Below, piece after piece: positions 46,380 through 55,472 of a stretch of 64,000 nt of DNA. Below the pieces are notes generated by a model. That model searched no databases. It had not been told where the DNA came from and worked only from the letters and a program-made list of their open reading frames with translations. The stretch is from positions 124,001 to 188,000 of the forward strand of contig JAGVWE010000003.1 in the NCBI GenBank assembly GCA_018304425.1. The letters run 5' to 3'. The position numbers were made by a program, and so were the translations under genes. The DNA is from Candidatus Iainarchaeum sp. GTDB lineage: Archaea; Iainarchaeota; Iainarchaeia; Iainarchaeales; UBA10219. Position 1 is the first letter of the stretch. The number at the start of each line of letters is the position of its first letter.

Positions 46380-46564
46380 GAAGCCCAGGCCAACGAAGAG
46401 AGGCCTACCGCCCCATTGAACCCTGCGGGTGAAATGGGGCACGTCCGCAAGTGCCAGTTGACCAGGGCAGTGTCCTGCAAGGCAGGACACGTTTCCCCGA
46501 AGACACAGTCTTCGGGGCCTCGTCCCCAAGGGGACAAGGTCGCAGGCCTTTTGTAAAAAGGCCT
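46380..46564 (+). ncRNA. hairpin-array RNA element A, upstream of tRNA-Val
   Basis: Six stem-loops lie in under 160 nt: CCCCATT/AATGGGG (46411-46439), GGCAC/GTGCC, GTGTCCTGC/GCAGGACAC (46470-46490), CCCCGAAGA/TCTTCGGGG (46495-46517), GTCCCC/GGGGAC (46522-46535) and AGGCCTTTT/AAAAGGCCT (46544-46564). The last ends one base before the tRNA. The fifth is enclosed by CCT/AGG across a C-A mismatch, exactly as in element B at 50.3 kb. A TATA (GTTTAAAAGG, about 46350) puts transcription near 46380. No gene fits here. It could be a separate RNA or a tRNA leader. Confidence 0.6.
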
Positions 46565-46565
46565 T

Positions 46566-46637
46566 GGGCGCGTGGTCTATCGGTATGACGTCGCCTTCAC
46601 ACGGCGGAGGTAGTCGGTTCAATTCCGGCCGCGCCCA
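46566..46637 (+). tRNA. tRNA-Val(CAC)
   Basis: Acceptor GGGCGCG/CGCGCCC, D-stem GTC/GAC, anticodon stem TCGCC/GGCGG, loop TTCACAC with anticodon CAC, T-stem GTCGG/CCGGC with loop TTCAATT, discriminator A. CCA is not encoded and there is no intron. It reads GUG valine codons. It directly follows hairpin-array element A, with which it may be co-transcribed. Confidence 0.92.
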
Positions 46638-46718
46638 TTTCTTCCCTTTTTTCCAAGTGCGTGGCCTGCGGTCGGCGAAGGCAAAAGGTTTTATGCACGC
46701 ACCCCCCACCAAGTATAT

Positions 46719-49712: not shown

Positions 49713-50216
49713 TTAAAGGTTTTGGCCGGCAGCCGGGGCCACGCCCAGGAATAATACCGCTGCGCCAATCAAGGCAAACCCGATGCCCATGCCGAGGAAA
49801 ATCATCATAGCCAACCCCATTCCGCCCAGCAAGGCATCCGCGGGATGGGAGTCATAGGGGTCGGCCGGGTTGACTTTCACTTGAATCGGGGTTCCCGAAA
49901 GGTGCTCGTCCGTGTACCGCTGCGCGGCCCCATAGTCGCTGGAACTCGGTGAATTGAAAGCATTCGTGTAGTCTTTGCCCTCGAACGTGAAAGAATACTT
50001 GAGCGTGTTGCCCCAGGTGACGCTCGAGCCACTGCGCCCCGTGGAACGGTCCTCGAACACGCTGGACTCCACGACCCTGGCATCTATGGAAACCCAGGGC
50101 GTGGTCTGCTCCTTGTACAAGAAGTAACCGCCTAGGCCGGCAAAAACGAGGCCCACCACCAAGAAAAGGGCTCCAACCAGTTTCGGGTTATTGGTTTGAT
50201 ACGAATACAATTGCAT
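49713..50216 (-). CDS. DUF3592-like membrane protein
   Basis: 167 residues from ATG MQLYSYQTNN. A first helix (LVGALFLVVGLVFAGLGGYF) is followed by an exported beta-rich middle (WVSIDARVVESSVFEDRSTG, LKYSFTFEGKDYTNAF, DYGAAQRYTDEHLSG) and a final helix. This is the usual DUF3592 layout; function unknown. CCTTTAAATAGG about 30 nt upstream is its TATA and may also serve the divergent RNA element. A truncated paralog lies downstream. Confidence 0.75.
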   Translation of the reverse strand: MQLYSYQTNNPKLVGALFLVVGLVFAGLGGYFLYKEQTTPWVSIDARVVESSVFEDRSTGRSGSSVTWGNTLKYSFTFEGKDYTNAFNSPSSSDYGAAQRYTDEHLSGTPIQVKVNPADPYDSHPADALLGGMGLAMMIFLGMGIGFALIGAAVLFLGVAPAAGQNL

Positions 50217-50271
50217 GCAAGGCAATAGAAGACCATGGACCTATTTAAAGGTTCCTCCAATGGCAGCTGAG

Positions 50272-50513
50272 AGTGCACGGGGCAGACCTTTTTACAACCA
50301 TCAAAAGCTTCGCTTTTGGTGGCGTCGTCCACGAAGTGGACAACGAAGCCCTGGGAAAACGTCCCCTGCGCGGCAGGGGGCTGGCTTGGCCTATCGGCCT
50401 CGCTATTTATGGCCCACCATCAAAACCTTCGGTTTTGGTGGCCTCGTCCACGAAGTGGACAAGGTCTTTAGATGGGCCGACGTATAGCGCGCAGCCGCCG
50501 CTATCGTGCGGCT
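50272..50513 (+). ncRNA. hairpin-array RNA element B, beside tRNA-Leu
   Basis: A 49-nt unit occurs twice (50297-50345, 50416-50464). Each has an 11-bp stem with TTC loop and a GTCCAC-GAA-GTGGAC hairpin closed over a C-A mismatch. The only four differences are two swapped pairs (307/313 against 426/432; 324/344 against 443/463). Between them lie AAGCC/GGCTT and CCCCTGC/GCAGGGG. AGACCTT (50284-50290) can close with AAGGTCT (50461-50467). A TATA near 50241-50250 predicts a start near 50272. No protein fits. The hairpin module CCTCGTCC...GGACAAGG recurs in element A. Confidence 0.65.
50274..50285. repeat. direct repeat of tRNA-Leu 3' end (att-like)
   Basis: TGCACGGGGCAG is identical to 50516-50527, which is the 3' end of the tRNA-Leu gene including its discriminator base. 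The two copies enclose the 230-bp hairpin array. This is the arrangement left by tyrosine-recombinase integration into a tRNA gene, but no integrase is present. It may be a scar or a mini-element. Confidence 0.5.
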
Positions 50514-50515
50514 AA

Positions 50516-50599
50516 TGCACGGGGCAGGATTCGAACCTGCGCACGCACTGAGCGACCGGGTTCTAAGCCCGGCGGATTTGGCCGCTTTCCTACCCGTGC
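50516..50599 (-). tRNA. tRNA-Leu(UAG)
   Basis: 84 nt, class II. Acceptor GCACGGG/CCCGTGC, D-stem GGA/TCC, anticodon stem CCGGG/CCCGG with loop CTTAGAA (anticodon TAG, reading CUA), long variable arm with CGC/GCG stem, T-stem GCAGG/CCTGC with loop TTCGAAT, discriminator A. No intron, CCA not encoded. Its 3' end is duplicated at 50274-50285. Confidence 0.92.
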
Positions 50600-50640
50600 A
50601 GCAAGAGGATGGCTCAGGCTTATTTAAGGCGAGCCTGAAT

Positions 50641-53852: not shown

Positions 53853-55472
53853 TCAAATCGGGCACACGTTTTTGTCGAATTTGTCCGAGAAAATCATGTT
53901 TTCGCCGTAGGTGATGGGCACGTCCACGATGCAGACGTTCTTCGTGGACAAGGCTTTTTCCAGGGTCGGGTAGAGGTCGGCCGCGCTTTCCACCCGGTAG
54001 CCCTTGGCGCCGAAGCTCTCCGCGTAGGCCACGAAGTCAGGGTTGGTGAAACTGACCCCGGACTCCCGGCCGAACTTTTTTTTCTGCTTCCAGCCGATGA
54101 CCCCGTACTTGGCGTCGTTGAAGACGACGATGGTGAAGTGGACGCCCAACCGCTTGGCGGTCTCTATTTCCTGGGAGTTCATGAGGAAGCCCCCGTCCCC
54201 CGTGACCGCCAGGACCTGCCGCTTGGGTTCCGCGAGCTTGGCCGCCACGGCCCCGGGAACCGCGATTCCCATGGAGGCGAAGCCGTTGGAGATGATGACC
54301 GTGTTGGGTTCGCGCGCGGGATAGTTGCGCGCAATCCACAGCTTGTGCGCGCCGACGTCACTGATCAGGATGTCGCAATCGCCCATGGCCTTGCGGATGT
54401 CGTACAACACTTTTTGGGGCTTCAAGGGGAAGGAGACATCCAGCTTGTTGGCCGCGTATTCTTCCTTGATGAGGGTCCGCAGCGTGTTGGGATAGTCAAA
54501 GCCCTTCCGGAAGCCCGTCCGGGTGGAGAGGATTTTGAGCGTGGTCCGGAGGTCGCCCACGAGTTCCACGGCGGGAACATAGTTGGCGTCGACTTCCGCT
54601 GGCACCGAGTCCACGTGGATGATTTTCTTGTTGTTGGCCGGGTTCCAGAGGCTTGACCCGTATTCCACGAAGTCATAGCCTACCGCGATGACCAAATCAG
54701 CCTGGTCAAAGCCGCAGGACACGTAGTCCTTTTGCTGCAAGCCAATCGTGGCCAGGCAGAGCTCGTGCTTGGCCGGAATCACGCCCTTGGCCATGAACGT
54801 GTTGGCCACGAACACGTTGTTCTTGACCGCGAACTCAACGAGTTCCCTGGAAGCGCGGCCGCGGATGACGCCGTTGCCGGCCAGGATGAGGGGCTTTTCG
54901 GCTTGCTGGATGAGTTCAACGGCCTTGTCGAGTTCCAGTATGTCCGGGTGGAAGCGCGGGCTGGAGGTCACGCGCAGGGGCCTGGCGTCCGACTGGAGGC
55001 CGGCAATATCTTCCGGCAACTCGATGTGGGTTGCCCCAAACTTCTCGGTTTGCGCGACGCGGAAGGCCTTTCGCACGATTTCCGCGACCGAGTCAGGGGA
55101 AGCGATGCGGGCATTCCATTTGGTGATGGGTCGCAACGCGCTCACGATATCAATGTACTGGTGGGATTCCTTGTGGGTCTTGGCCAGGCCGGCCTGGCCA
55201 GTGATGGCCACGAGGGGCGCGCGGTCCATGTTCGCGTCCGCAACCCCCGTGATGAGGTTCGTTGCCCCAGGACCAAGCGTTGCCAGGCACACGCCCGCGC
55301 GCTGGGTCAACCGCCCATAGACATCCGCCATGAAGGCCGCACCTTGTTCGTGGCGCACGGGCACGAATTTTATCCTGGCCCCGTTCATGGAATCCAGGAT
55401 ATCAATGGTTTCCTCGCCAGGCAAGCCGAAGACGTACTCGGCTTCCTCGTTTTCGAGGCATTCCACGAACAA
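53853..55472 (-). CDS. ilvB: acetolactate synthase large subunit-like TPP enzyme
   Basis: 539 residues. TPP-enzyme features are complete: YVFGLPGEETIDIL, VRHEQGAAFMADVYGR with the catalytic Glu, LGPGATNLITGVADA, and the cofactor motif VTGDGGFLMNSQEIETA...NDAKYG, given here in pieces (GDGGFLMN, FNDAKYG). The product fits acetolactate synthase, though the regulatory small subunit is absent and a catabolic AlsS role is possible. The listed start is a TTG. Family members begin MKVSD-, and KVSD is encoded just upstream after an ATC, so the real start may be unusual. It overlaps the end of the Fur operon region. Confidence 0.88.
   Translation of the reverse strand: MFVECLENEEAEYVFGLPGEETIDILDSMNGARIKFVPVRHEQGAAFMADVYGRLTQRAGVCLATLGPGATNLITGVADANMDRAPLVAITGQAGLAKTHKESHQYIDIVSALRPITKWNARIASPDSVAEIVRKAFRVAQTEKFGATHIELPEDIAGLQSDARPLRVTSSPRFHPDILELDKAVELIQQAEKPLILAGNGVIRGRASRELVEFAVKNNVFVANTFMAKGVIPAKHELCLATIGLQQKDYVSCGFDQADLVIAVGYDFVEYGSSLWNPANNKKIIHVDSVPAEVDANYVPAVELVGDLRTTLKILSTRTGFRKGFDYPNTLRTLIKEEYAANKLDVSFPLKPQKVLYDIRKAMGDCDILISDVGAHKLWIARNYPAREPNTVIISNGFASMGIAVPGAVAAKLAEPKRQVLAVTGDGGFLMNSQEIETAKRLGVHFTIVVFNDAKYGVIGWKQKKKFGRESGVSFTNPDFVAYAESFGAKGYRVESAADLYPTLEKALSTKNVCIVDVPITYGENMIFSDKFDKNVCPI

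Follow-up and report, generated by a model that had tools for sequence, protein, structure and literature searches.

Is the array of hairpins that lies against tRNA-Leu(UAG) in the 64,000-nt stretch of archaeal DNA analysed here (the window) an RNA in its own right? A preliminary description had proposed a single dedicated, structured noncoding RNA with a TATA box near 50242 and a 7-bp closing stem. As that description reported, the two 49-nt units of the array (50297-50345 and 50416-50464) were identical at 45 of 49 positions, and the four differences formed two matched C/G swaps, both at predicted pairs (G50307/C50313 to C50426/G50432, and G50324/C50344 to C50443/G50463). The chance that four random differences coincide with two of the 20 pairs in the fold is ~9e-4, even before complementarity is required. 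The region also folded better than its shuffled versions (z = -6.2 on the plus strand). Paired exchanges and low folding energy both speak for a dedicated RNA, but the minus strand folded equally well against shuffles (z = -6.3), and hairpin stability that is the same on both strands counts against a dedicated one-stranded RNA. The supposed closing stem AGACCTT/AAGGTCT (50284-50290 with 50461-50467) is present as a complement, yet its ensemble pairing probability was ~1e-4 and 5% of shuffles had a 7-bp complement linking the ends of the region, so it is not a closing stem. The TATA box, TATTTAAA at 50242-50249, does exist; however, it also lies 26-33 nt ahead of the start codon (ATG at 50216) of a divergent DUF3592 gene, whose promoter it would suit too, and it is therefore not specific evidence for a plus-strand RNA. 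A separate TATA-like sequence, TTATTTAA at 50620-50627, belongs to the tRNA-Leu gene. Searches around the array with Rfam 15, at gathering and permissive thresholds, returned tRNAs only and no known structured RNA family, and Rfam found no match at four copies of its repeats located away from tRNAs.

Rather than a single RNA that carries a promoter and a closing stem of its own, the region proved to be two separable, adjacent dispersed repeats, one from each of two families, bounded on one side by a 12-nt copy of tRNA-Leu 3' sequence and on the other by tRNA-Leu(UAG) itself, whose 3' end they adjoin (Table 1). The family-1 element consisted, in order, of an H1 arm, a two-hairpin block borne in the H1 loop, the linker GGGAAAACG, an H2 hairpin and an H3 hairpin, and had a 97% identical copy elsewhere in the window's genome (G000) at G000:C1:292463-292579. 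The family-2 element ran from TATTTATG through an H2 hairpin (GGCCC..GGGCC) and CGACGTAT to a tRNA-proximal hairpin, H1. The composite was bordered on its left by the 12-nt tRNA-Leu copy, of which the final two bases overlapped the family-1 match. A like arrangement was found at the tRNA-Leu(CAG) locus, where ~20 nt of the tRNA 3' end was copied (L010:2330-2350). An element integrated at a tRNA att site would bring an integrase gene and a direct repeat that includes the tRNA 3' end. The repeat of the tRNA-Leu 3' end measured 12 bp in the window and ~20 bp at tRNA-Leu(CAG), but the 242 bp between the window repeats held no coding gene, and the other docked copies that were inspected had no tRNA 3' repeat. 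These copies at the left edges of two arrays could be scars of tandem duplication or could reflect insertion into a duplicated tRNA. The second family-1 copy in the window scored 37.5 bits with R1 over 46521-46564 and 16.4 bits over its H2 part (46452-46498), carried a different two-hairpin block in its linker, and folded strongly as single-stranded DNA (z = -9.2). In the two-hairpin blocks of the array, of L089 and of the loci in genome G034, each hairpin kept one C.A/T.G mispair, at the fourth base pair from the hairpin foot and on either strand.

Table 1. Positions within the window of the repeats, their parts and the neighbouring tRNA genes.
Feature	Position	Strand	Evidence or remark
12-nt exact copy of the tRNA-Leu 3' end (TGCACGGGGCAG)	50274..50285	-	Direct repeat with 50516-50527, spacing 242
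Family-1 element	50284..50400	+	Covariance model R1, 77.4 bits, E 3e-16
First two-hairpin block, in H1 loop of family 1	50297..50345	+	Matching block in three other family-1 copies (L069, L083, L085); diverged form in L070
Family-2 element	50402..50513	+	Covariance model R2, 49.9 bits, E 3e-16
Second two-hairpin block, in H2 loop of family 2	50416..50464	+	Unit comparison
tRNA-Leu(UAG), 3' end abuts family 2	50515..50600	-	ARAGORN; Rfam RF00005
Another family-1 copy, abuts tRNA-Val(CAC) 5' end	46452..46564	-	Covariance model R1
tRNA-Val(CAC), where the 46452-46564 copy docks	46565..46638	+	ARAGORN

Covariance-model searches of the window's genome, on which the copy counts rest, yielded 28 copies of family 1 (R1, E<0.01) and 18 of family 2 (R2, E<0.001), occurring singly, in tandem and in both orientations relative to tRNAs. 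The elements were short (~50-120 nt), noncoding and rich in palindromes. Read outward from the RNA gene, they followed a common plan: nearest the gene came a hairpin, H1, free in sequence; then a linker, GCGAAAACG for family 1 and GCATACGTC for family 2; then a second hairpin, H2, of the GTCCCAT..ATGGGAC type; and finally a family-specific tail. Both loops and linkers held additional, nested hairpin blocks; the 49-nt unit of the array is a block of this sort, captured once in each of its two elements. In genome G014 the family-2 H1, AAACTTTTTGTAAAAAAGTTT, was nearly the reverse complement of the family-1 H1, AAACCTTTTTACAAAAGGTTT, a likeness that suggests a relationship between the families. 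At the left edge of family 2 in G013, G059, G026 and some G000 copies, a distal motif (AATATTAC/AGTACTAC) stood ahead of the hairpin, which we take to be reminiscent of rolling-circle nick sites. The exact core pattern had no match in public genome and viral collections, from which the window's own and near records were possibly excluded.

Edges of 13 of the 28 family-1 and 7 of the 18 family-2 copies fell 0-6 nt from a listed tRNA end, all facing the tRNA (binomial P ~5e-29 and ~2e-15, respectively, even with copies confined to 15% of the genome), and 19 of 43 tRNA genes carried a docked element. Three further family-1 copies were introns, in tRNA-Asp(GUC), tRNA-Gly(UCC) and a tRNA-Ser, each starting at the canonical 37/38 junction with its first base directly after the 5' exon. 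One copy lay 24 nt past the 23S rRNA (Rfam match), one adjoined a tRNA-Gly that the tRNA search had missed, three stood in tandem behind a docked copy, and three, that of the window included, were within the 3' regions of two tRNA-Leu genes. An additional family-2 copy abutted the apparent 3' exon of an intron-containing tRNA-Glu, read from the sequence. An RNA gene nearby was absent for 4 of 28 family-1 and 9 of 18 family-2 copies. The same hairpin, H1, always faced the RNA. Under the family-1 convention (family 2 being written the other way round), an element at a tRNA 5' end was therefore antisense to the tRNA, and those at 3' ends or inside the three introns were in the sense orientation.

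An occupied and an unoccupied site were provided by twin tRNA-Pro(UGG) genes 1.6 kb apart with identical exons (G000:C7:52237-52309 and 53911-54033; L043, L061). One had a clean 50-nt insert in its anticodon loop, starting AAGCCTTTTTT, and also, at its 5' end, a tandem pair of family-1 elements; its twin had neither. No target-site duplication was found at this insertion. The evidence is one within-genome pair, from which gain and loss are not separable, and it could record loss of an intron instead of gain. Bulge-helix-bulge pairing at the exon junction was obtained by hand for the tRNA-Pro insert and the three intron copies; the window copies lie outside mature tRNA and hence are not introns of this kind.

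The stems themselves are real and maintained by paired changes, as the two units had implied, and the same held on a large scale among relatives. Of the family-1 cells, 96.9% were paired, and 14 of the 22 pairs varied on both sides, as did 14 of 15 pairs in family 2; nearly all variable pairs changed on both sides, with no single-sided intermediates. The preliminary description attributed the paired exchanges between the two units to selection on RNA, an interpretation that the mispairs do not bear out. Among 733 cells there were 8 G.T and 9 A.C, rare and equal, unlike the acceptor stems of the same genome's tRNAs, where 13 G.U and 0 A.C occurred in 203 cells (P 6e-5 for wobble fraction, 0.003 for polarity). 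The excess of G.U over A.C that marks the functional strand of a strand-specific RNA was thus missing from the repeats. Because the alignments were fitted to the models, the pairing is inflated, yet such fitting should not favour A.C over G.T. DNA template switching that homogenises inverted repeats also yields paired exchanges with almost no single-sided intermediates (PMC8604942). Covariation without wobble or strand polarity therefore favours DNA inverted repeats over a one-stranded RNA.

The host is a Diapherotrites-like DPANN archaeon, placed among Candidatus Diapherotrites by its thermosome matches, and the complete genome of GW2011_AR10 (G013) belongs to the same order. We found family 2 in 15 of 75 genomes of this order and in none of 12 belonging to other parts of the class. 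Other families within the order yielded weak family-1 matches, and these too adjoined tRNA ends or formed introns. Six of the 12 family-2 copies of GW2011_AR10 abutted a tRNA end or exon and three more stood in tandem behind such a copy; some of the tRNAs concerned carry introns and were recognised from the sequence by reading. G059 held 41 family-2 copies, and most of those read were away from tRNAs, which makes docking a strong preference and no absolute rule. In G059 (L267-L272) several copies were followed by a common downstream sequence, ATGAGAAAAACTTGAAC, possibly a larger element. Two G034 loci (L020 and L021) had, by eye, tRNA-like sequences broken up by hairpin arrays, which included a CCTTGTCC..GGACGAGG hairpin also found in the window's two-hairpin block. 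Our search of the open-access literature, which did not extend to subscription journals, found no account of such repeats in Diapherotrites or DPANN.

We read the repeats as an apparently undescribed palindromic and probably mobile family targeted to tRNA boundaries. Our best explanation, to which we give a probability of about 0.7, is that two members of this dispersed family make up the array and that the family is, or recently was, mobile or copied as DNA hairpins. The elements would move, or would be copied, in hairpin form, probably as single-stranded DNA, and a putative nuclease, encoded by the host or borne by an element, would recognise the boundaries of tRNA genes (or the folded tRNA sequence) together with H1. 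Copying of one arm from the other at the DNA level, a need for the hairpin during copying, or both, would keep the arms complementary. If the repeats are mobile DNA hairpins at tRNA boundaries, the tRNA-Leu-linked array would be either debris of insertion or a passenger carried passively in the tRNA trailer, and not a dedicated small RNA. More speculatively, they may constitute an undescribed class of miniature archaeal mobile elements that recognises tRNA and rRNA processing boundaries, sets H1 against the 5' end, the 3' end or position 37/38, and is thereby a direct source of new tRNA introns in this DPANN order.

No transposase, target-site duplication or complete autonomous relative could be tied to the family. 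The sole IS200-type (Y1) transposase found in the genome, at a contig end (G000:C1:81-437, within L208, G000:C1:1-1524) near tRNA-Thr(CGT), found no support as the mobiliser, its flanking hairpins being by eye unlike families 1 and 2; the presence of Y1 in relatives did not track the repeat family. Nor do the repeats qualify as MITEs, having no pair of terminal inverted repeats (each end is a separate hairpin) and no target duplication at tRNA-Pro. The 92.5%-complete genome contained no reverse transcriptase of family PF00078.

A dedicated noncoding RNA is highly improbable given the evidence above. Alternatively, the hairpins might be cis-acting elements of tRNA processing or termination, functional in leaders, trailers and introns and spread because they are useful there, for example by shielding the ends or by directing RNase P, RNase Z or the splicing endonuclease. 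Their placement at mature tRNA ends and at the 37/38 junction, and the hand-paired bulge-helix-bulge junctions in which intron copies use their first bases, would fit such a role. Even so, we consider it unlikely: 24 of the 43 tRNA genes carry no docked element, one and the same sequence runs antisense to the tRNA where it docks at a 5' end and sense where it docks at a 3' end, the G.U/A.C polarity of an RNA is absent, and many G059 copies are distant from RNA genes. A function in cis on either strand during tRNA maturation may nonetheless exist.

Movement could instead take place at the RNA level: the splicing endonuclease and an RtcB-type ligase would join excised intron RNA to tRNA ends, by reverse splicing or ligation, and the product would then be reverse transcribed and recombined into the genome. 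Archaea also process 23S rRNA at bulge-helix-bulge motifs, and the elements sit at cut sites of pre-tRNA (5' end, 3' end and 37/38) and beside 23S rRNA, which speaks for this route. So does the large-scale tRNA intron transposition reported, without an established mechanism, in Thermoproteales (PMC4090602). However, copies at 5' ends are antisense to the tRNA and are not the direct product of joining element RNA to tRNA, a PF00078 reverse transcriptase is lacking, and the RNA strand polarity is again absent, leaving this route quite improbable. DNA hairpins remain our preferred explanation, and we judge the array itself to be ordinary debris from insertions of a larger system that is apparently undescribed. 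The occurrence of the same palindromic element as an intron and at both tRNA ends, with a filled and empty tRNA-Pro pair, provides a concrete, testable donor sequence, and such elements may show how these microbes acquire tRNA introns. Paired base swaps in hairpins, by the same token, are alone no proof of selection on RNA.

Among known systems, the tRNA-gene-targeted retroelements of yeast and Dictyostelium are long and insert tens to hundreds of bp away. Like the present repeats they insert beside tRNA genes and away from the mature sequence, but no reverse transcriptase was found here. The palindromic elements of Rickettsia and Wolbachia and MITE-like repeats (PMC10969869 for MITEs) are likewise hairpins on the 100-nt scale, passively carried in or beside genes, whereas our repeats are archaeal, differ in sequence, prefer tRNA boundaries and, unlike MITE-like repeats, had no terminal inverted repeats or target duplications that we could find. 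A tRNA-Thr locus of Caldiarchaeum disrupted by a mobile element similarly combines tRNA intron gain with tRNA fragments, but that element is 1.8 kb long and encodes a recombinase, in contrast to the ~50-120 nt noncoding repeats described here (PMC3293823). REP/BIME repeats, mobilised by REP-associated tyrosine transposases (PMC2817692), share the form of short, dispersed, noncoding, imperfect palindromes in single copies and tandem mosaics; the archaeal repeats have far fewer copies and no linked REP-associated transposase, and precise docking at tRNA ends and introns is a feature of theirs and not of REPs. The transposed tRNA introns of Thermoproteales (Fujishima 2010, cited in PMC4090602) likewise place similar introns at the canonical 37/38 position of different tRNA genes; the elements reported here are also found flanking the mature tRNA on either side, in either orientation, and next to 23S rRNA.
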